From: a virus
IMG/VR virus record: IMGVR_UViG_3300027506_000008
Location: 1-37,131 of that record
Strand: one strand, 5' to 3'
DNA: 37,131 bases
Positions 6,997-24,864 of the stretch are shown piece after piece. The notes under the pieces were generated by a model, which searched no databases, had not been told where the DNA came from, and saw only the letters and a list, made by a program, of their open reading frames with translations. Positions within the stretch are counted from its first letter, which is position 1, and every line of letters starts with the position of its first letter. The position numbers and the translations under genes are program-made.

Positions 6997-7463
6997 GCAT
7001 GGCTTACAAACTAGGAAACAGAAGTATCGCAAAGCTTGAAGGTGTGGACGAACGACTGCAAGCCGTAGTCAAAAGCGCAATAGGTCAAAGCTCTCAAGAT
7101 TTTAGCGTGATCTGTGGCATGAGAACTATTGAGGAACAGCGCAAGCTGGTCGCTAAAGGCGCGTCACAGACGATGAAGTCTAAGCATATCGAAGGTTTGG
7201 CTGTTGATCTTATGGCGTACGATGCTGACGCATCTCCATCTGGCCGCTGGGAATTAAACCTCTATGACGAGATTGCAGATGCCATGAAGAAGGCCGCGCA
7301 AGACTGCGGCGTTGCTGTAAAATGGGGAGCAGCGTGGAGTGTGGGTGACATACGAGACTGGACCGGCACGATGGAAGAGGCAATGAACTGTTATGTAGAC
7401 GAAAGACGCTCACAAAATCGCAGACCCTTTATTGATGGGCCTCATTTTGAGCTTATAGTTTAG
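6993..7463 (+). CDS. Endolysin, M15-family peptidase (L-Ala-D-Glu / VanY-like)
   Basis: 156 residues with no signal peptide, so release needs the holin. The zinc-peptidase signature is complete: 'CGMRTIEEQRKL' near the N-terminus, 'SKHIEGLAVDL' giving His65 and Asp72 of the SxHxxGxAxD motif, and 'DGPHFEL' giving His151 at the C-terminal end. Known members (phage T5 Lys type) cut the L-Ala-D-Glu peptide bond in peptidoglycan of Gram-negative hosts. It is the last gene of the lysis cassette, with ATGA overlap to the membrane protein before it. An extra segment (~106-135) sits before the last His, where the family varies. High confidence in enzyme class, lower in exact bond. Confidence 0.9.
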   Translation: MSMAYKLGNRSIAKLEGVDERLQAVVKSAIGQSSQDFSVICGMRTIEEQRKLVAKGASQTMKSKHIEGLAVDLMAYDADASPSGRWELNLYDEIADAMKKAAQDCGVAVKWGAAWSVGDIRDWTGTMEEAMNCYVDERRSQNRRPFIDGPHFELIV

Positions 7464-10067: not shown

Positions 10068-12003
10068 TCTACCTACAGTATCTACCCCACTCCCAAGAGA
10101 TTTGCAGGGGTTTGTTCAGCGTGTCCGAGAGGTCATAGACGGAAATGGGCTAGATGCGGTTGTAACTGAGCGCAAACTTATTTCTAGGGGGCTAACTGCA
10201 ACTTCAGTAGGTGGCGTCGCTGTGGTTGGTGAGACTATAGACACTCCTCGCGCTCCACGGAACGTGACCACTTCGGGCGCATTGGCAAATATTATTGTTA
10301 GCTGGGATGGGCCTAACTATGGAGGTCATTCGTATAGCGAAATATGGGCGCATACAGCAGACCTGATAGGCGAAGCCGTTCTTGTTGGAATGACAGCTGG
10401 AGATAACTTTTCCCACAATATAGGCGCTGCTGCGGTTAGATATTATTGGGTTAGGAATATAAACCGGAACGGTGTTGCGAGTGCTTTCAACGCCACAGCG
10501 GGAACTCAAGGCTCTACTGGGCAAGACCCCGCTTATCTTTTATCTTTACTAACTGATGAGATTACTACCAGTCAGCTCGCTGGCGCTCTCAACACAAGGA
10601 TTGATTTAGTAGACGCCGCTGCCAGCGTGACTGGTTCTGTCAATGCTCGTATTCAAACGGTGTCCTCAACAGTAGGAACAAACACAGCTGCTATACAAAC
10701 AAACTCAACCGCTGTTAACGGCTTAGAGGCCCAATATACAGTAAAGATTGACAACAATGGCGCAGTAGCTGGTTTTGGTTTAGCCAGTACAACTACAGGG
10801 TCAGGCAATATTACTTCTGAGTTTATTGTTAACGCTGACCGCTTTGCAATTATGCGCGGTGGGTCCGACACAACAGCAGCTGTAGTTCCATTTGTTGTGC
10901 AAGCCACTCCGACCACGATAAATAACGAAACTGTCCCCGCTGGCGTTTACATGGAAACCGCCTTTATTAAGAACGGCACTATTAACAGCGCAAAAATAGG
11001 CTCTCTTACTGCGGACAAAATAAGTGCAAGCCTTCTAAACACTGTCGATTTTTACGGGAACACCATCGCTGGCTCGGAAATATATTTAGGTGGCACAGTA
11101 AATTATACACAAGACGGCGGTGGAAATAATATTGGCATTAGCAACGTGTCTTCTCCCAAGGTCTCTATGACATCTACGGGCGCAGTTTTCGCTGTTGACG
11201 CATTTACTATAGACAACCCCGGCGGTTCAAGCGTTACGCCTTTTGCGGTGGTAAACAACACGGTGCGCATTGACGCTGCTGTAATCGGGGATGCAAGTAT
11301 AACCACCGCTAAGATCGGAAACGCAGAAATAACTACTGCTAAAATCGAAGACGCGGCCATAACCACCGCCAAAATTGGAAACGCAGAAGTAACTACCGCT
11401 AAAATCGAAGACGCAGCGATAACTACCGCTAAGATCGGAAACGCTAGTATCACAGATGCTAAGATCGGAAACGCAGAAATAACCACCGCTAAAATTGACG
11501 ATGCAGCGATAACTACCGCTAAGATTGACAACGCGGCCATAACTACCGCTAAGATCGGAAACGCTGCAATTGGAACCGCTCAAATTGGTGACTTGCAAGT
11601 TAGCACACTGAAAATTGCGGGTCAGGCAGTCAGTAATACTGCGTTTGACGAAGATACAAAATCAGGGCAATGGAGTGGGTTTGAAACCGTAGCGGACTTA
11701 ACTTTATCGACAGAGGGTGGAAACAAAGTTATTGTGCAGATGTCTTGCAACGCAACTATTGGGTCATCCGGCCAAGGGCAACCTGTTGTGCTCACTATGC
11801 AATTACTCAGAAACAATGTTCTTGTAGAAACATACGGACGATTATTTGATGATCAAACCTATGGAAACAGTATTGGACCGTCTGCGGTGTACGTTGATAC
11901 AAGTGCAAGCGGAACGACAAACTACAAAACAAAATTAAATAGACAGGGCGATGGGACTGTTAGCTTTACCAGCTACCTTGTAGCTACGGAGTTAAAGAGA
12001 TGA
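10060..12003 (+). CDS. Lambda J-like tail tip / fibre protein with DUF1983 and decapeptide repeats
   Basis: A TTG at 10054 is possible, but the GTG at 10060 has GGAG at the right distance (7 nt), so I take 647 residues, overlapping the previous gene by 8 nt. Residues ~65-150 resemble a fibronectin III domain ('TPRAPRNVTTSGALANIIVSWDGPNYGGHSYSEIWA'). Residues ~195-300 match the DUF1983 region of lambda J-type host-specificity proteins ('YTVKIDNNGAVAGFGLAS', 'SEFIVNADRFAIM'). Residues ~414-513 are ten decapeptide repeats of the type ITTAKIGNAE. The C-terminal domain (~535-647) is beta-rich. The product should sit at the tail tip and contribute to host recognition. Followed by its likely assembly chaperone in an ATGA overlap. 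Confidence 0.85.
   Translation: MANLPTVSTPLPRDLQGFVQRVREVIDGNGLDAVVTERKLISRGLTATSVGGVAVVGETIDTPRAPRNVTTSGALANIIVSWDGPNYGGHSYSEIWAHTADLIGEAVLVGMTAGDNFSHNIGAAAVRYYWVRNINRNGVASAFNATAGTQGSTGQDPAYLLSLLTDEITTSQLAGALNTRIDLVDAAASVTGSVNARIQTVSSTVGTNTAAIQTNSTAVNGLEAQYTVKIDNNGAVAGFGLASTTTGSGNITSEFIVNADRFAIMRGGSDTTAAVVPFVVQATPTTINNETVPAGVYMETAFIKNGTINSAKIGSLTADKISASLLNTVDFYGNTIAGSEIYLGGTVNYTQDGGGNNIGISNVSSPKVSMTSTGAVFAVDAFTIDNPGGSSVTPFAVVNNTVRIDAAVIGDASITTAKIGNAEITTAKIEDAAITTAKIGNAEVTTAKIEDAAITTAKIGNASITDAKIGNAEITTAKIDDAAITTAKIDNAAITTAKIGNAAIGTAQIGDLQVSTLKIAGQAVSNTAFDEDTKSGQWSGFETVADLTLSTEGGNKVIVQMSCNATIGSSGQGQPVVLTMQLLRNNVLVETYGRLFDDQTYGNSIGPSAVYVDTSASGTTNYKTKLNRQGDGTVSFTSYLVATELKR
11299..11598 (+). repeat. 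Ten tandem 30-bp repeats (ITTAKIGNAE units)
   Basis: Ten in-frame 30-bp units run without gaps, coding for I-T-T-A-K-I-(G/E/D)-(N/D)-A-x. Units are very similar at DNA level (ataactaccgctaagatc type), so copy number could shift by slippage. In J-like proteins such segments form a triangular beta-helix spacer before the tip. Confidence 0.9.
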
Positions 12004-16195: not shown

Positions 16196-19100
16196 ATGGC
16201 GACGTATTTAGAGCAAGTTCGCGCAGCCTTTCCCGACCTAGACAAACAGGGTTATAGTGACGAAGAAGTTGTCATCTGGCTTGCTGATAAAAATGGTGCG
16301 GACCGCCAAGAGATTGGTGAGTTTCTTGGAGTGTACGACCCGAACCAAGGAGATTTTTCTCGTGGGGTTTCGTCTGCAATCGACGCCACGCAGGGGATGG
16401 CCTATGGCGCTGGTGCTTTGTTGGCAGACACCGTTGGCGCTGACAACGCTAGAGACAAAATGCTCGGTGGTTATCGAAGAAACATGTCGCAGATTGAGCT
16501 GCGCAGTAAGCCTACCGACAGCTACGAAGGAATTAATAACTTCAGCGATGCCGCCGCCTTCGCAAAATACTACTCAGGCTACGGGTTAGCGCAGGGCGTA
16601 CAGGCAATTGCCACTGGTGGCTTGGGGGGCATAGTAGGTAAACAGGTCGTCAAGCAGGGACTAAAACGAGCGGGTAAAGACTTACTCGAAGATAGCTCAC
16701 GCACTGCCTTAGAAAAGGGTGCTAAAGTTGGTAGCTATGGTGGGTTTGGTTCGCAAGCTGTTGGTACAGAGCTAGGTGCCACATACGGCGGAGCCGTTGA
16801 CCGCGCCTCGGAAACCGGACAGAGTATCGACGATATTAATCTTGCAAAAGTTTACGGGTACGGCACCGCAGCCGGTCTTGTGGAAGGCGTCGCCGACGTT
16901 GCCACAGCGGGTTTGGCTCGCTTCGGACCAGCTAAAAACCTCCTAGAAACCGCTGCCAGCTCGCGCAAACGTAGTACAAACGTTCTGACTGGCGCAGTTA
17001 AAGGCGCAGCGATAGAAGGTGCTACCGAGGGTGTTCAGACAGGTCTTGAAGATTTAGGTGCAGGATACTCTGCGGAAGAAGCCCGGTTCTTTGATCCAAC
17101 TTCTGTCTTGGCTGGGGCCATAGGTGGCGGACAATTAGGTGGCGTCGGTGGGCTTTTACGAACTCCGCAACAAAGCAGTACGGATCTAAACGAGACTGTA
17201 GAAGTAGCCAAAGCCAACGTCGGCGAACAGTTACAGCTGAACCTCGATGACCCGTCGACGCCGCAGCAGCTTGAGGCGCAACGCGCCGAGCAGCAGAACA
17301 AAGCTGAAGCCATAAATAAACTTAACAAGTCCCGACAGGAAGCTGAGAACGACGCGTTCCGCGTCGAAGCGCAATCGTTCACAAAGAAAGACTTCAAAAA
17401 ACAACTCGCCGCTGGGCTAGAGGCAACTGTGGATGATCGTACATCTGATTTAGGTCGAGAATTTCTTAGCGAGTTGAATACCCCTACCGATGAAAACCCT
17501 ACAGGTATTATTGACCCAGACGACGTTAAAGCTGCACGTACTAAATTTGTAAAAAGAAAAACTGACGAGCAAACAGGTAAGCTCAACGAAGCATACATAT
17601 CTGAAATACAAAGACGGATAGCTGAGAAAGCAAAGAACCAAGATCAGATCGAACTGGACTTCGATCAAAAGACACAACAAGAAAAACAACAGCTGGAGCT
17701 AGATAAGCCAGCCCTCAGTGGTACAAAAGCTATCGAGCAGACTGAGCGTATGTTTGGCAAAGACTGGGTTGCCAGTGGGAACTATGAAGCCTTGGAAGCT
17801 GCGGTAAACGCACCCAAATTTAACCGCAAGAAGTACGCTCAGGCGTTGAATGAAGCAGTTAACTCACCTGTTAACGCGTCAACAGAACAAGCGTTAGAAG
17901 GTCCAAGGGGGCGGGTCCAAGAAGCGATTGAAGCTATTGCTCCTGCACTAGAAAGAGCGCCGCAACAAAAAGCAGTCTTCGAAACGTTTACAAACGCGTT
18001 GTTTAACAACCAAATGGATAAGTACATTCAAGTAAACATACGAAAAGGAAAAAAATACTACGCCCTAAATTACCAAGAGTTAGCCGATGATGCGGGGATA
18101 ACAGGCAAGAACAATCGTACCACCGCCAACAATGCCATGAAGCGCATTATGCCGAAGCTAAACAAAGCGCTTGGCTTAGAGGAAAATGACAGCGGGGGTT
18201 TACAAAAACTACTTGCAGAGCTTGCGGCAGAACGAAAGCTTGAGACACAGCCGCAAGCACCGGGGCAATCTGAAACGAACGTTGGCGACGACGACATAAG
18301 GACTGGTGCTAAGCTAGACGACGTTGCCCCAGATAAAATTGAACAGACCCTTAAACAGATGCCAGCTGTGGGAGCAGACGGGCCAGCAACACGCGGTACG
18401 GTTACCAGAGCTGACGCCGACGAAGTGTTGGACGCTCAAGAAAACCTAGATGGAACAGCCGGTGAGCAGTCCGCGTTTGATCTAGGTCGAAGCACGGTTA
18501 TATCTGCGGGGTCTGGTAATTATAGGGGCGTAAAGAAAGAAGACAAAGCCTTTACGCGAAGCCTTGTAAGCTCCAACGAAGAGGTAGCTGCGGTGGCTGC
18601 TGAGCGAAACCAGAAAATAGATGACGAAGTTGAGTCGAAGAGCGCCCTCCTTAAAGGCGTATGGGACAGCGGCAAGGCTCCTGACACAATGTCGTTTGTC
18701 GATCTGAGCGCAGCTGACAAGCGCGAAGTCTATTTCATAGTGCGCCAATACTTAGATGACCAGCTTGACCAAAGCATAAGTTCAGAAGCCGCTCTGGAAC
18801 AAGTTCGCGCAGGAATTGCGAAGATAGAAACAACCTTACCTACAGCGGAAGAGAGCGGTACCAATGAAACAACAACTCAAGATGCCGAACCGAGGCGATC
18901 TAATGAAGCTGAAGAAGGGGTTCGACGAGAACGTGCTGCCAATCCTACAGGAGATGGACCAAGCGGGACAGGAAATGTCACCCAGAGCAAAGAAGCTGTT
19001 ACAGGCGAGCAAGAAAACAAAACAGTCGTAGAGACTAAACCCGTTGAGAAAGCTGTTAAAAAGCCAAAAAAGCCACCCGCTAAGAAAGCTTCTAAAAAGC

Positions 19101-22100
19101 CAGAAACACCACCCGCTAAACTCGCTAAAGACAGGCTCATGCCTACGTCGTTCGTTACCGGTCAAGCCTTTGTAGCCGACGTTTACCACGGGACTACTAC
19201 CGATATTAATGAGTTTGATTCCACGAAGCTGGGAGATAACACCGGAGCGGGGTCAGCGCAGGAAGCATTTTTCTTTGGCGGAAAGCCTCAGACCGGAAAT
19301 TCTTATGCGACATCTAAGTCAGAACGGCAGAAAGACGCAGAGTACAATCGAGTTTTGAACGTATCTCGCAAATATTTGGGACAAAAAAAATTAAACGCTT
19401 CTGAGCAAAGCACTTTGGAGGACATGTTAGCTCGCGCGGCTGAAATGAAAGACGGGGAAAAACTTTTAACAGCTCTTGTGAAGGCGTATAGTCAAGACCC
19501 AAAAAATGGAACGCCTGTTTTGTCTATGGCGAGAAACTTTAGTCCAATTTCGAAGCCTCAAGTTCAGCTGCGTAGAATACGGATGAGTAACCCCTTCGTG
19601 TACGACTACAAGGGCGCAAAAATTAGGGACGTAACCTACCTAAGTTTAATCCAGAAAGCCAAAGCAGCCGGTCACGATGGCGTCGTTATGCTCAACACAT
19701 ACGACCGCGCTGGAAAAAGAAGGGCTGAGCTTACCGAGGAGGATATGGATAATATCTTTGCCGTGTTCGACGCGTCAGACATTACCAATACCTTTAAGCT
19801 TAGAGAAGACAAAACCAAGTTTGGTCTCCCCGTGGAAGCCAAAGAGCCTTCTACGCGCGTGGCGTTTGAGCAGGAAATAGAAAACCTAACAGGGCAGAAA
19901 ACAAACTCACGTATCCACGTGTTCGATACATATAAGGAAGCTCTACAAGCTATCGAAGACGGCGCTGTTCCCGCAATGGATATCGAACGTCTGAATAAAG
20001 CTCAGCCGTATGGGTGGGTTGCGCTTGACGATAACGGTGATCCCCACGCCCACTTCGTCCTCAGTAAAGTTAGTGCTGGTCGTGAGAAATCGGCTTTCCT
20101 CCACGAAATGGGTGGTCATGTCGGCATAGATGGCATTATTCCTGCGCAAGATCAGAAAGACCTCGCCGATCAAATCTCTGATTGGGCGGGTCAGAACAAC
20201 AATACACTGGAAAGCAATATTGCTCGACGTGCGATTGCTCGTGTTGCTGACGCACGTACGAAAGACAGTAAAGGCATGGCTTCTGAAGGAGCTATTCTGT
20301 CTGAGACCATAGCATATTTCTTGGAAGAAGCTGCCATTGCTGGCGTTGACCCAAGCGTGAACAGCACTGTGGCTAACTTTGTTAAAAAGCTACGTGATCT
20401 TTTCCGCATCGCTTACGAGAAGCTAGGGTTTGGCGAAGCAAGTACGCTCACCACTCAAGACATTGTTGATTTAGCCTACGGCGCAGCTCGTCTGGAGTTG
20501 ATGCATGGTGTGTCTGAATTGAACACACAAAACCCGATGACAACGACGTCGATGCAAGCAGCTCGCCTTGGTGTTGCAAGCCGAGAGTACGTTAGAGAAC
20601 ATCTTGGTGGGGCAAACGCAGTACAAGCATACGATACAGCGGCGGGAGTAGCCGCCAAGGCAGCGCTTTCGCTAAAGTTCGTGCACAACATAGTACGTGA
20701 CAACCGAGCTAGTATGCCAGCTTTGGGGCGGTGGTATGACGCCATGTTGAAAGTCGAAGCCACACGGAATGAAATAAAGCGTTCTCTTAACGACATGAAA
20801 AAACAAGCTCGCGCCTTGAGTTCTGAACGCCGTGCCGTGGTAAATAAATTCTTGGGTGAGAGTACATTTGACCAGCAGTGGGGCTACGACCCAAAAGAAT
20901 ACCACGCTGACTTGTTCGCGGGTAAAGAAGTTCAAATCAACACTGGGAAAAAGCTTCAGTTCGACAGGCTATCCTCTACAGAAAAACAGCTTGTTGCAGA
21001 CATATTTTCTCACGGTGAGCGTATGCGACAGCGCAAAGCCGCCCTCGCCAAGAGGCTAGGCGTCTCAGGTAAGTTCTTTAGGGACGGTTCGCTGGAAGGC
21101 CCGTACGCCCCTCTGAAGCGCTTCGGCAATTACGTCGCAGAACTCAAGTCCGCTAGATTAGTGGAAGCTGGCAGAGCCGCAAAAGCAGCGGGAGCCACGA
21201 AAAAACAGAAAGAGTTGTACGAGACGCTCAAGTCTGACCGCAACCACTACATTGTTAGCTTCTTCGACACCGAAGGATCGGCAAACCGTTTCATCGACAA
21301 CAACAAAAAGAACTATGCGTTTTCATCTCCAGCGACAGAGCGTTCGCCAGACCCCAACAGAGATAGGGTTTCGGATTCCGAGGTTTATGAAAAAGTTATG
21401 GGCGCATTGTCGGCTAGCGAAAGCAGCAATATGGACCCGAACGCAAAGGCAGCATTCCGCAACATGATACGCGGTATGTACTTCCAGTCTATGGATGAGC
21501 GCAGTGCTAGGACATCAGGGGCCAAGCGTCTTAATCGCGCTGGCTACGAAGAGAACATGTTACGCTCGTTTGAAAGCCACGCGGACGCCGAGGCAAGTAT
21601 GATAGCGCAAATGGAGAACGGCACTGAAGTCAACACGGCGTTAGCCCAAGCGAATAACGAAACTCGTATTGACCCTGCTGACCCCGAAAGTATGCGCGAC
21701 ACAAATAAGAAACGCATATATAACAACATAGCTAAGCATTACGGAAACACTCTGACCCGAAACGAAACACCGGTCCAAGACATGGTTTCCACCGGTAACT
21801 CTGTTTATATGTTGCTGACCAGTGTGGGGTATCACTTAACCAACGCAACACAGCCGATGATGGTTTCGGTCCCACGCATAGCTGGCGACTTCGGCAACTA
21901 CGGCAACGCTTGGAGCGGTATGTTCCGAGGTTATAAGTATTCTAGGGCTGCTGCTAAAATCGGCATGGATATGGAGACCGAGATTGATCTCGACAAAGTT
22001 CCACAAGAGTACCGTGCGCTTTTAAAGACGCTACAAGACCGCAATCTCCTCGACCAAGGTATGGAAGAAGACGGCGCGTTCGACCGTTTCAACACAGGTT

Positions 22101-23296
22101 CTGAGGTTCTAAATCGTGCGTCAGATGTACTCGGCACCATCACAAGCAAGTTGTACAACGTGGCTAAGTTCGTCGAGGCGCAGAACCGTATTTCTACTGC
22201 CATAGCCGCCTACGATGCGGCACGAGCCAATCCGACGAAGCTCGCTGCTATGAAAATGACACCCGAGCAGTATGCAACTGCCGTCGTCGAGGACACTCAA
22301 GGTAACTTCTCTCAGCTAGACGCGCCGTCTCTGATTAAAGCATTACCCAAGGTTGTCACACAGTATCGCAAGTACCAGCTTCTTATGGCGTGGCACTATT
22401 CCAGTGCATTCAACCAAGGGTTTTTAGGGGAAACTCCAGAGATTAGAGCAGCTGGCAAAAAAGTTCTCGCGTACTCTTTAGGTCACGCTTCTATGGGCGC
22501 TGGCGCTACGGGTATTCCGCTACTCTCTTTAGCTTTCTATGTCAGCACGTTCCTAGGCGTAGGCGACGACGAACCAATAGACATGGAGCGCTATATCAAA
22601 GAGAATATTGACGATGGTCCTTTGGGCCAAGCACTGTCACGCGGCGTGTTCTCTGTATTCGGTCTCGACCTAAGCACCAAGCTCAGCCAAGGCAAGATAT
22701 TCCACCCCCTACCCTACGTAGATTTTGAGGTTGGTGAAGAAGGTGCGCGAAACATTATTATGGGCGCTGTTGGTCCCGCTGGTACAACGGGCGTCAATTT
22801 CTTCCGCGCAGCGGAGTATTTTAAACAGGGCGATCTACTTAAAGGTATCGAATACTCCATGCCCAAAGGTATCCGCTCAGCGGCTGAAAGCTATCGTCTG
22901 GCAACAGAAGGTATGACAACTAAGTCAGGCACCGTCGTCGTCGACCCGCGAGAGATTGATGTTGTTAGTCTACTCATCAACGCACTTGGCTTACCCGCCA
23001 GTGAGATCAACAGTCTCAAGTGGACGAAGGGGCAACAGTACGAGATACAACAGTATTTCAACAAAGAGAGTGGCAAGATACGCAGGAAGTACATCGAAGC
23101 CACGCGGAACAGAGACCGCAGCGGGCAAGCAGAAATGCGCCAAGAGTTCAGAGACTTACAAAAATCCAAAGATCGTGTGCGACCATTCTTCAACGATGCT
23201 CCCGGTGCGCTGAAGCGCCAAAGCATCAGTACGCTACTCAAATCGCCAAGCGCCAAGGCCAAGCTAGAAAAAAGAGAACAAGAAAAACTCAGATGA
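16196..23296 (+). CDS. Giant polyvalent protein: ART-like, metallopeptidase-like and PLxRFG regions
   Basis: 2366 residues, the largest gene here. N-terminus 'YLEQVRAAFPDLDKQGYSDEEVVIWLADK'. Residues ~110-330 contain hydrophobic Gly/Ala segments ('GLAQGVQAIATGGLGGIVGK', 'LAGAIGGGQLGGVGGLL'); ~360-930 are charged helices, then a Lys/Pro linker (~940-980). From 996, 'VYHGTTTDINEFD' with 'FFFGGKPQTGNSYATS' and 'HDGVVMLN...VFDASDI' resembles the ART-PolyVal ADP-ribosyltransferase domain. 'FLHEMGGHVG' (His1303, Glu1304, His1308; HExxxH) is the metallopeptidase-like signature of this class. 'PLKRFG' at 1639-1644 is the PLxRFG motif. A hydrophobic block lies at ~2088-2125. Known relatives are injected multi-effector virion proteins (DarB/Bcep22 type). 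Target unknown; the peptidase may be inactive because the spacing is not HExxH. Confidence 0.85.
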   Translation: MATYLEQVRAAFPDLDKQGYSDEEVVIWLADKNGADRQEIGEFLGVYDPNQGDFSRGVSSAIDATQGMAYGAGALLADTVGADNARDKMLGGYRRNMSQIELRSKPTDSYEGINNFSDAAAFAKYYSGYGLAQGVQAIATGGLGGIVGKQVVKQGLKRAGKDLLEDSSRTALEKGAKVGSYGGFGSQAVGTELGATYGGAVDRASETGQSIDDINLAKVYGYGTAAGLVEGVADVATAGLARFGPAKNLLETAASSRKRSTNVLTGAVKGAAIEGATEGVQTGLEDLGAGYSAEEARFFDPTSVLAGAIGGGQLGGVGGLLRTPQQSSTDLNETVEVAKANVGEQLQLNLDDPSTPQQLEAQRAEQQNKAEAINKLNKSRQEAENDAFRVEAQSFTKKDFKKQLAAGLEATVDDRTSDLGREFLSELNTPTDENPTGIIDPDDVKAARTKFVKRKTDEQTGKLNEAYISEIQRRIAEKAKNQDQIELDFDQKTQQEKQQLELDKPALSGTKAIEQTERMFGKDWVASGNYEALEAAVNAPKFNRKKYAQALNEAVNSPVNASTEQALEGPRGRVQEAIEAIAPALERAPQQKAVFETFTNALFNNQMDKYIQVNIRKGKKYYALNYQELADDAGITGKNNRTTANNAMKRIMPKLNKALGLEENDSGGLQKLLAELAAERKLETQPQAPGQSETNVGDDDIRTGAKLDDVAPDKIEQTLKQMPAVGADGPATRGTVTRADADEVLDAQENLDGTAGEQSAFDLGRSTVISAGSGNYRGVKKEDKAFTRSLVSSNEEVAAVAAERNQKIDDEVESKSALLKGVWDSGKAPDTMSFVDLSAADKREVYFIVRQYLDDQLDQSISSEAALEQVRAGIAKIETTLPTAEESGTNETTTQDAEPRRSNEAEEGVRRERAANPTGDGPSGTGNVTQSKEAVTGEQENKTVVETKPVEKAVKKPKKPPAKKASKKPETPPAKLAKDRLMPTSFVTGQAFVADVYHGTTTDINEFDSTKLGDNTGAGSAQEAFFFGGKPQTGNSYATSKSERQKDAEYNRVLNVSRKYLGQKKLNASEQSTLEDMLARAAEMKDGEKLLTALVKAYSQDPKNGTPVLSMARNFSPISKPQVQLRRIRMSNPFVYDYKGAKIRDVTYLSLIQKAKAAGHDGVVMLNTYDRAGKRRAELTEEDMDNIFAVFDASDITNTFKLREDKTKFGLPVEAKEPSTRVAFEQEIENLTGQKTNSRIHVFDTYKEALQAIEDGAVPAMDIERLNKAQPYGWVALDDNGDPHAHFVLSKVSAGREKSAFLHEMGGHVGIDGIIPAQDQKDLADQISDWAGQNNNTLESNIARRAIARVADARTKDSKGMASEGAILSETIAYFLEEAAIAGVDPSVNSTVANFVKKLRDLFRIAYEKLGFGEASTLTTQDIVDLAYGAARLELMHGVSELNTQNPMTTTSMQAARLGVASREYVREHLGGANAVQAYDTAAGVAAKAALSLKFVHNIVRDNRASMPALGRWYDAMLKVEATRNEIKRSLNDMKKQARALSSERRAVVNKFLGESTFDQQWGYDPKEYHADLFAGKEVQINTGKKLQFDRLSSTEKQLVADIFSHGERMRQRKAALAKRLGVSGKFFRDGSLEGPYAPLKRFGNYVAELKSARLVEAGRAAKAAGATKKQKELYETLKSDRNHYIVSFFDTEGSANRFIDNNKKNYAFSSPATERSPDPNRDRVSDSEVYEKVMGALSASESSNMDPNAKAAFRNMIRGMYFQSMDERSARTSGAKRLNRAGYEENMLRSFESHADAEASMIAQMENGTEVNTALAQANNETRIDPADPESMRDTNKKRIYNNIAKHYGNTLTRNETPVQDMVSTGNSVYMLLTSVGYHLTNATQPMMVSVPRIAGDFGNYGNAWSGMFRGYKYSRAAAKIGMDMETEIDLDKVPQEYRALLKTLQDRNLLDQGMEEDGAFDRFNTGSEVLNRASDVLGTITSKLYNVAKFVEAQNRISTAIAAYDAARANPTKLAAMKMTPEQYATAVVEDTQGNFSQLDAPSLIKALPKVVTQYRKYQLLMAWHYSSAFNQGFLGETPEIRAAGKKVLAYSLGHASMGAGATGIPLLSLAFYVSTFLGVGDDEPIDMERYIKENIDDGPLGQALSRGVFSVFGLDLSTKLSQGKIFHPLPYVDFEVGEEGARNIIMGAVGPAGTTGVNFFRAAEYFKQGDLLKGIEYSMPKGIRSAAESYRLATEGMTTKSGTVVVDPREIDVVSLLINALGLPASEINSLKWTKGQQYEIQQYFNKESGKIRRKYIEATRNRDRSGQAEMRQEFRDLQKSKDRVRPFFNDAPGALKRQSISTLLKSPSAKAKLEKREQEKLR
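17869..17884 (+). promoter_or_regulatory. 16-bp dyad, copy 5 (intragenic)
   Basis: TGTTAACGCGTCAACA, 13 of 16 matches, followed by GAAC, inside the giant gene (codons 559-563, VNAST). No start codon with a ribosome site follows nearby, so if functional it would act as an internal binding site. Confidence 0.35.
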
Positions 23297-23341: not shown

Positions 23342-23391
23342 ACCCCCAGCCCGGCTAGGTTTCGCACTGCAACGGTTGGGGGTCTTTTTTT
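23342..23391 (+). terminator. Rho-independent terminator ending the late operon
   Basis: ACCCCCAGCC pairs with GGTTGGGGGT (10 bp, one G-T wobble) around a 22-nt loop, followed by C and seven T. It lies 46 nt after the giant gene's stop and before the converging integrase gene. The T-run orientation serves rightward transcription. Confidence 0.85.
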
Positions 23392-23399
23392 GCCCTCAG

Positions 23400-23410
23400 C
23401 GTGGGACACC
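23400..23410 (+). repeat. GTGGGACAC repeat 1
   Basis: CGTGGGACACC, first of four copies in the region between terminator and integrase stop. Shorter match than copies 2 and 4. Candidate integrase arm-type site. Confidence 0.5.
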
Positions 23411-23452
23411 TTTATCCTAACCTATTGATATGTTTAGGGCCGGATTTACTTT

Positions 23453-23470
23453 CCGTGGGACACCCTACCA
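23453..23470 (+). repeat. GTGGGACAC repeat 2 (18-bp form)
   Basis: CCGTGGGACACCCTACCA, identical over 18 bp to the copy at 23573-23590 and 120 bp away from it. Candidate integrase binding site or one attachment-site arm. Confidence 0.6.
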
Positions 23471-23554
23471 TTGATTTCATTGACATTTTTATTTAAATGG
23501 TGGGCGACCCTGCACTCCCAATAGGGCAGTTTTAGCTATATTTTGTTGACTAAA

Positions 23555-23583
23555 GTGTCCCACGTAAAAACACCGTGGGACAC
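23555..23583 (-). repeat. Perfect inverted repeat at integrase 3' end
   Basis: GTGTCCCACG (23555-23564) and CGTGGGACAC (23574-23583) are perfect 10-bp inverted copies around a 9-nt loop; the right arm belongs to the 18-bp repeat 23573-23590. It lies just beyond the integrase stop and could double as a leftward transcript-end hairpin, though only three T follow on that strand. Confidence 0.65.
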
Positions 23584-23590
23584 CCTACCA
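23573..23590 (+). repeat. GTGGGACAC repeat 4 (18-bp form)
   Basis: CCGTGGGACACCCTACCA, identical to 23453-23470, and overlapping the last codons and the TAG of the integrase gene (23585-23590). Confidence 0.6.
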
Positions 23591-24667
23591 GTCTAAGGCC
23601 GCTAGAGATTTTAGTCCGTCCGCTGCCAAACCGCGTCGTTCGACGCCCTTGGTGTATATCTCCGACGTCCGCGCTTCTGTGTGGGACATGACAGACATTA
23701 TCTGGTGTTGAGTGCTACCCGCTTCGGCCATCAGTTCAGCCATGGCTTTGCGCACCCCATGTGACGAACGCCCGTCTAGTCCTGCGGCTTTACACCAGCG
23801 TTGAACTCTAACACGCAGCGCCTCAACAGAGGTAAACGGTAGTCCTTTTTCGTTAAGAATGTAACTCGACCCGACCACGGTAGACAGGCGCGTGGCTTCA
23901 ACTAGCGGTGGGAGCATGGGGATCGACACAAACGCAGAACCTTTTTTGCGCGGCTGGAACTCTAGCCACAGCTGGCCGTTCCTAGTTTTTTCTTGGCCGC
24001 GCCCAATCCATAGTGCGTCGCCAATACGACAGGCGGTGAATGCTTGGATCGTCAACCACAGATGAGCAGTTGTACCACGAGGGTGTTTTTCTTTGAAGGC
24101 TTTAATGTCTGCGGCGGTCCACGGTTTAGCGCCACCTTTAGGATTTTTGTTTATGGCTCCGATACCCGCAGCTGGATTGTGACCTATTTCGTCACGCTCC
24201 ATAGCCCATGCGTACAGAGCTTTGATTGATTTGATTAGGTTGTCCGCTGCGCCGGGGCGACTAGCCCAAGCATCTCGTATCTCCACAAACACGCTTGTGG
24301 GGGCATCCATATCACAATCGCCGTATCGAACGTCGTCGTCGCCGCGATAGTCACACATGCGGGTAAGGACGCTTCGACGTTGTTTTAGAGTATCTGCTGA
24401 CATTTGCTTGGCGGCGACCATGTCTCCTAAGAACTTTAAGTATCGAGCTACTAACCAATCGAGGGAGCGTGTTACTTCGGTCTTCTCGGCAACAAGCTCC
24501 CAAACTTCTCCTGCCCGTGCTGCGTAGTAGTGATGTAGAAAATCAGGGTGGGTCGGACCCACAGGCATTGTAGTTCGCTTGGTTTTATCGCCTTCCTTGC
24601 GCACACGGTAGCGCTTTGAGCCGCTCGGGGTTTTATCCACTACTAGCCCTGCAAGTTTGACTTTCAA
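23585..24667 (-). CDS. int: Tyrosine recombinase, phage integrase
   Basis: The frame allows a GTG at 24688, but a TTG at 24667 has a perfect GGAGG (24673-24677) 5 nt upstream and follows the previous stop by 2 nt, so I take TTG; 360 residues. N-terminal ~60 residues are an arm-binding-like basic domain ('SGSKRYRVRKEGDKTKRTTM'), then a SAM-like core-binding domain (~70-165). Catalytic set is complete: Arg214 in 'TACRIGDAL', His303 and Arg306 in 'SSHGVRKAM', His329 in 'VMSHTEA', Tyr338 in 'SEIYTKG'. It should catalyse site-specific integration and, with a directionality factor, excision. It is the last gene of the leftward operon, next to the repeat array. The phage is therefore probably temperate. 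Confidence 0.93.
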   Translation of the reverse strand: MKVKLAGLVVDKTPSGSKRYRVRKEGDKTKRTTMPVGPTHPDFLHHYYAARAGEVWELVAEKTEVTRSLDWLVARYLKFLGDMVAAKQMSADTLKQRRSVLTRMCDYRGDDDVRYGDCDMDAPTSVFVEIRDAWASRPGAADNLIKSIKALYAWAMERDEIGHNPAAGIGAINKNPKGGAKPWTAADIKAFKEKHPRGTTAHLWLTIQAFTACRIGDALWIGRGQEKTRNGQLWLEFQPRKKGSAFVSIPMLPPLVEATRLSTVVGSSYILNEKGLPFTSVEALRVRVQRWCKAAGLDGRSSHGVRKAMAELMAEAGSTQHQIMSVMSHTEARTSEIYTKGVERRGLAADGLKSLAALDW

Positions 24668-24669
24668 TA

Positions 24670-24864
24670 TTACCTCCGCGCAGCCCACTGTTTGGGCTTC
24701 GGACTTTGATCCAGAACGGACTCGGTGTCCAGTTTTTTCTGGTCTGTTTCGACGCGGACGCTGCCATCCTTACCCACAGACACGGCGCAGATAGATAAAC
24801 CTGCGTCCTGCGCTGCTTCGATGGCTCGCTTAATCGCGGCTTTGGTTGTGACAGCTGCTGGCAT
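24670..24864 (-). CDS. Small protein directly upstream of the integrase
   Basis: 64 residues; start overlaps the upstream gene's stop (ATGA) and the stop is 2 nt before the integrase TTG. Sequence: Ala-rich helix ('TTKAAIKRAIEAAQDAG') then a short beta hairpin 'ICAVSVGKDGSVRVETD' and a polar C-terminus. I recall similar small proteins next to integrases of alphaproteobacterial phages. A role as excisionase or integration accessory is possible but no HTH is visible. Its last codons supply the integrase's Shine-Dalgarno, so the two are translationally coupled. Confidence 0.7.
   Translation of the reverse strand: MPAAVTTKAAIKRAIEAAQDAGLSICAVSVGKDGSVRVETDQKKLDTESVLDQSPKPKQWAARR

Follow-up and report, generated by a model that had tools for sequence, protein, structure and literature searches.

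Why does a virus carry four copies of one short word in the gap between its late genes and its integrase gene? The window, meaning the whole stretch of DNA that was analysed, is a viral record of 37,131 bases. Its late genes end at position 23296, with a terminator-like stem behind them; the integrase gene (23585-24688, minus strand) faces the late genes, and the repeated boxes occupy the gap between them. The stem with its T-run (23342-23390, plus strand) belongs to the convergent late operon and borders the putative phage attachment site (attP). It is kept in the related loci L004, L006, and L110. The reading frame at 16196-23296 (plus strand) encodes a 2366-aa protein, the C-terminus of which matches a DarB-like antirestriction family (PHROG 10089, E 1e-30); a sub-threshold match to an ADP-ribosyltransferase was also seen.

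Four boxes beside the integrase gene

The original prediction described three direct copies and one inverted copy of a short motif as likely attP arms. It was found that GTGGGACAC occurs exactly at 23401, 23455, and 23575 on the plus strand and at 23555 on the minus strand. These are its only four copies in the window, all inside 23400-23584. Both the 18-bp identity (23453-23470 with 23573-23590) and the inverted repeat of 10 bp, perfect between 23555-23564 and 23574-23583, were confirmed. The final copy had been said to overlap the integrase stop, which is true of the 18-bp extension (stop codon at 23585-23587) and untrue of the 10-bp box, which ends just outside. In 60 first-order shuffles of the window, no 9-mer appeared four times within 190 bp, and 3 shuffles had one appearing three times.

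The unit kept in relatives is a 10-bp box, GTGTCCCACG in the sense of the integrase gene, and not the 18-bp sequence. Box 1 (23574-23583, minus strand) starts at offset +1 from the stop codon and is the first half of the inverted pair; box 2 (23555-23564, plus strand) is inverted relative to it, with 9 bp between the two. Box 3 (23454-23463, minus strand) is a direct copy beyond the core described below, and box 4 (23400-23409, minus strand) lies 54 bp from box 3. The IHF consensus TATCAATAGGTTA (WATCAANNNNTTR) is matched perfectly between boxes 3 and 4 (23418-23430, minus strand), the sole such match on its strand in the window. Between the core and box 3 there is a sequence, AATGAAATCAA (23471-23481, minus strand), which is invariant in five aligned attP regions and is a putative accessory site.

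A fifth near-copy, GTGGGACAT at 23681-23689, lies inside the integrase gene. It stays TGTCCCA in the relative L003 even though the L003 boxes have changed, so it was set aside as coding sequence rather than a site. A search of viral contigs with the exact 17-bp repeat gave no match.

Box layout in relatives

Is this layout common among relatives? Genes related to the integrase gene were found in 33 of 395 Rhodobacteraceae genomes at E <= 1e-40, and also on large plasmids of Rhodobacteraceae and in IMG/VR contigs. Repeats with the same spacing are present in relatives having the same kind of integrase. With the integrase stop as reference, the box offsets are 1, 20 (inverted), 121, and 175 for the window and L004 alike; those of L006 and L110 are smaller by one base, and those of L077 are 1, 20, 121, and 176. 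In all five, a perfect IHF consensus begins 153-155 from the stop. The distance of 54 bp between boxes 3 and 4 also recurs in L004, L006, L110, and the attL of L011, and L123, L013, and L278 have the same box order with slightly different distances. The IHF consensus is in the same place in L004, L006, L110, L077, L123, L011, L013, and L014; no match to it was found in L079, L080, and L136. In L120, L125, L126, and L162 the attP is a mirror image, with a direct pair 54-55 bp apart and the IHF consensus adjoining the integrase gene, while the other pair lies away from it. A fixed order of boxes, together with its mirror image, argues for a working assembly.

Each element has its own box word: GTGTCCCACG in the window, GTGCTCCACG in L004, GTGCCCCGCA in L006, GTGCTCCCCG in L110, and GTGTCCCGCA in both L077 and L011. 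In the window, L004, L006, L110, and L077 all four copies share the word of the element, and the sequence between the boxes is largely kept; in L079, one of the four boxes is degenerate. Among the 109 distinct integrases with at least 45 nucleotides downstream, 52 have a pair matching at least 9 of 10 positions near the stop codon, compared with 0, 0, 0, and 2 in four shuffled controls. No recognisable pair adjoins the integrase gene in about half of the distant relatives, and no box at all was found for about 10 integrases.

The inverted pair alone might be read as an RNA hairpin, a terminator or 3′ stabiliser of the integrase message, with the other copies incidental. Its perfect 10-bp stem, its 9-nt loop, and its place immediately 3′ of the stop codon suit such a role, but no T-run follows the pair in the window. 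Moreover, L027 and the mirror-image group (L126, L162, and L166) retain the word but have it as a direct pair next to the integrase gene, which argues against a hairpin. The two far copies also show the same changing letters, and the letters track integrase residues as described below. The hairpin is thus extremely unlikely, and the boxes are treated hereafter as arm-type sites.

In L054 and L136, the first integrase start is followed directly by a second one downstream. The boxes of L054 are about 560 bases further on; for L136, a box is not assignable with certainty to one of the two proteins.

The core and the tRNA-Tyr gene

A crossover core had been expected in the A/T-rich middle of the interval. 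Instead, the putative core is the G/C-rich sequence CAGGGTCGCCCACCA (23498-23512, minus strand), which lies beside the A/T-rich stretch and equals the 3′ end of tRNA-Tyr(GTA) including CCA, as seen in the tRNA-Tyr of L011 and L047-L050. ARAGORN detected no tRNA gene or fragment in the window, and the core was recognised from relatives. The word CAGGGTCGCCCACCA occurs in 70 of 100 Rhodobacteraceae genomes, while the reversed control occurs in none, and it belonged to tRNA-Tyr in the four loci examined.

As the original prediction had proposed, an integrated form was sought in host genomes. It was found for a relative, L011, in a replicon of Paracoccus denitrificans (NZ_CP141053.1). Here an element about 18.7 kb long has a 65%-identical integrase at one end and a tRNA-Tyr(GTA) gene (2377-2460 of the locus) at the other. 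The 22-bp core GATTCCAGGGTCGCCCACCACT, the 3′ end of the tRNA, is duplicated, with one copy at each end of the element. The boxes are split accordingly: the inverted pair lies between the integrase gene and one core copy, and two direct boxes, 54 bp apart, lie beyond the tRNA gene. Joining the two halves reproduces the attP layout of the window. In the relative, the integration junctions fall in the matching interval, the core is present twice, and attL and attR each have part of the boxes; the proposal of attP arms is supported.

The identity of the window core with tRNA-Tyr is 15 bp, against the 22-bp duplication in L011. From this identity and from the relative, I infer that the window phage integrates at tRNA-Tyr. 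An integrated copy of the window phage itself was not found, nor was the empty attB of the L011 strain in the plasmid collection, nor a second integrated example in the 20-kb regions; the elements are probably larger than the 20-kb regions examined. Other, short elements at tRNA-Tyr (L051-L053; 5.6-12 kb) also have the 3′ end of the tRNA duplicated and have no such boxes, and a related integrase is distant or absent in them. Thus, tRNA-Tyr is a shared target, or hotspot, and is not specific to this integrase family.

Two further loci were noted. In L006 the core (around 7160-7175) is GGGGTGGCCTACCA and not the end of tRNA-Tyr, and the boxes and their spacing are kept; this may reflect another target or host. 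In L014 (4480-4760), a tRNA-Tyr junction with boxes of the GTCCCGCA type and an IHF consensus adjoins a different integrase and another tRNA-like sequence; these are stacked elements.

The integrase and its predicted N-terminal domain

The integrase is a tyrosine recombinase (PHROG 1; PF00589, E 5.4e-9), and its catalytic residues R221, K248, H310, R313, H336, and Y345 are invariant in 28 sequences. Translation probably starts at the TTG at 24667, which lies behind a GGAGG and seven codons after the listed GTG; the L006 and L011 integrases begin at the equivalent position.

An AlphaFold2 model was built with 28 sequences (mean pLDDT 85.7), and the best fold match of the whole model is full-length lambda integrase. 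Residues 8-58 (24515-24667, minus strand) form a predicted N-terminal domain, the proposed arm-binding domain, with strands at residues 15-19, 25-31, and 34-41 and a helix at 50-58. Three strands followed by a helix is the order known for the arm-binding domains of lambda and Tn916. In the model, residues 20-22 make up the first turn, between strands 1 and 2, while residue 28 is in strand 2 and residue 38 is in strand 3. When the N-terminal domain alone was searched against PDB folds, there was no significant match, and none of 28 members had a match to a Pfam arm-binding family in residues 1-60. For this reason, homology to the known arm-binding domains is plausible only. The lambda and Tn916 domains do share a fold (PMC8138268).

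Box letters and integrase residues change together

If the boxes are read by the N-terminal domain, do the two change together? The integrases of the window and L003 are identical at 283 of 292 residues (97%) after residue 75 and at 52 of 75 (69%) up to it, and their DNA identity is 59% in codons 24-46 and 81-99% after codon 70. Their boxes differ: the window has GTGTCCCACG, and the two copies visible in L003 read GTGCTCCC. Differing boxes also go with another pair of close integrases, those of L004 and L006.

Mutual information was calculated for 49 integrases with a called pair over 352 alignment columns. Box letters 4-5 have residue 38 as their top column and letter 6 has residue 28; for letters 8 and 10, residues 20, 21, and 22 lead. 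In the window, these correspond to the codons of Arg38 (24575-24577), Arg28 (24605-24607), and Thr-Pro-Ser at 20-22 (24623-24631, the turn between strands 1 and 2), all on the minus strand. A further 13 rows, near-duplicates among them, had no called pair; when box words were sought close to the stop codon, these rows fitted the same residue-letter rule, and with them the table has 62 rows. In this table, Arg38 goes with T4C5 in 38 of 38 rows and Val38 with C4T5 in 3 of 3; Lys38 is found with CC (9), GA (8), TA (2), and TC (2; L039 and L177, which speak against the rule). Arg21 goes with A10 in all 14 cases and other residues with G10 in all 48. Leu28 goes with A6 in 3 of 3 in the 49-row set. 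The Fisher p-values are around 1e-14 when kinship is ignored. Some box labels were registered by hand (palindromic GTGGACCAC words, L003, and the added rows), which limits the comparison, as does the ambiguous box of L136.

To take kinship into account, a tree of residues 76-367 was used, and independent pairs on well-supported branches were compared for 294 columns. Letters 4-5 and residue 38 each changed about 13 times on the tree. Residue 38 was concordant in 6.4 of 7 independent pairs on average (6-7) and opposed in none (sign test p 0.016-0.031), the best of the 294 columns; the runner-up scored 3.1. For A10 and Arg21 there are 3 independent pairs, all concordant, and for A6 and Leu28 there is one pair. 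Five new viral loci (L326, L330, L333, L334, and L345) agree with the rule; all are of the common Arg38/Pro21 class, and the agreement is weak support. Genome draws made after the rules had been fixed mostly returned the same genomes. On these comparisons, the coupling of box and integrase appears strong for residue 38, suggestive for residues 20-22, and thin for residue 28. The comparison of about 60 relatives suggests which integrase residues read which box letters.

Could the four copies be alike merely through recent local duplication or gene conversion, with no selection for a match to a protein? Two of the window copies do agree over 18 bp, beyond the box. However, L004 and L110 lack this extension, the letters inside the boxes change together against a retained sequence between them, the spacing is fixed almost to the base, and agreement of letters with integrase residues recurs across the tree. 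Duplication alone has next to no plausibility as an explanation, and arm-type sites held to the integrase by selection are preferred.

A candidate directionality factor

A 64-aa ORF overlaps the start of the integrase gene (24670-24864, minus strand). Of 148 distinct integrases, 100 have an upstream match to a home-made profile of this ORF. In 17 of the 148, its place is taken by an AlpA-like winged-helix protein, and the two were never found together; the chance of no overlap under independence is 5e-10 with kinship ignored. The 64-aa protein, which has no family name, is a candidate recombination directionality factor. Among 50 prophages in a survey of Rhodobacteraceae, no excisionase was reported (PMC8224337).

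The presence of a small protein gene just upstream of the integrase gene in most relatives raises the question of whether the boxes are instead operators for another DNA-binding protein, such as an excisionase or a repressor of the integrase gene; excisionases in general also bind attP arms. On the other hand, the box letters co-vary with residues of the integrase N-terminus, and the same GTGTCCCGCA box is common to elements with the 64-aa type and with the AlpA-like protein (L079 and L080 versus L077). The box thus follows the integrase and not the small protein, making operators improbable and leaving sites for the integrase as the reading pursued here.

A proposed lambda-type assembly and its comparison with known systems

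The interval very probably serves a lambda-type (heterobivalent) tyrosine integrase as its attP. This integrase would target the host gene for tRNA-Tyr(GTA) at its 3′ end and read the boxes with its N-terminal domain. The catalytic part of the integrase would act at the 15-bp tRNA-identical core, and the N-terminal domain with its three-stranded sheet would hold the four 10-bp arm boxes, the inverted pair on the integrase side and the other pair, 54 bp apart, across the core. IHF, bound between boxes 3 and 4, would fold the far pair back onto the core. Letters 4-5 may be read by residue 38 in strand 3, letter 6 by residue 28 in strand 2, and letters 8 and 10 by residues 20-22 in the turn between strands 1 and 2; such reading would make box and domain change together. 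Arm binding, the use of IHF, the points of strand exchange, and the contacts of single residues are proposed from sequence comparison.

The arrangement has the traits of a lambda-type attP: a core shared with attB and duplicated (in L011), and repeated arm-type sites which flank the core and adjoin the integrase gene. The lambda attP likewise has separate arm-type and core sites. It has an IHF site between them, for which the consensus between boxes 3 and 4 is the candidate counterpart, and lambda Int, the best whole-chain fold match, has N-terminal, core-binding, and catalytic domains (PMC4880445). The differences are also clear. The window has four boxes instead of five, of unrelated sequence. 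On one arm, two of them stand inverted with 9 bp between them, and on the other, direct copies at a distance of 54 bp flank the predicted IHF site; the core is in the 3′ end of a tRNA, and the arm domain belongs to no family detectable by sequence. Elements with arm-binding-domain integrases commonly target tRNA 3′ ends. Those integrases of phages and ICEs (Tn916, SXT, and P4 types) have the domain order proposed here, AB-CB-CAT (PMC8138268); their arm-binding domains and the lambda assembly have been reviewed (PMC8138268, PMC4880445). The Rhodobacteraceae survey reports prophages in tRNA genes, that is, the same kind of hosts and tRNA targets; in the available part of its text, the tRNA targets are listed without Tyr and arm sites are not treated (PMC8224337).

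The motif had been called unfamiliar, and this stands: in the literature searched, which left most subscription journals outside, there was no arm site of matching sequence. The same literature described no coupling of residues to letters for arm sites, and within it the residue-letter rule is new for such integrases. Thus, the attP is of a known kind while its layout and sequence are new, and its interest lies in an arm code that can be read.

A compact residue-to-base code (turn 20-22, residue 28, and residue 38) may have been switched repeatedly by selection while the catalytic domain stayed constant, so that elements using the same tRNA keep their arm specificities apart and do not act on each other's sites. 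I offer this tentatively, with the balance tipping slightly against it. Since arm-type sites differ from one integrase to the next, it is difficult to recognise them in a sequence. With the rule, the boxes, and hence the attP and both arms, would be predictable from the integrase N-terminus in phages and islands of Rhodobacteraceae. The natural series of near-identical integrases with differing arm specificities offers a test of how a beta-sheet arm domain chooses its DNA, and bears on whether arm specificity separates prophages with a common target site.

Elsewhere in the window (11290-11440, plus strand), short direct repeats, for example four copies of AACTACCGC, are clustered in the tail-fibre gene.
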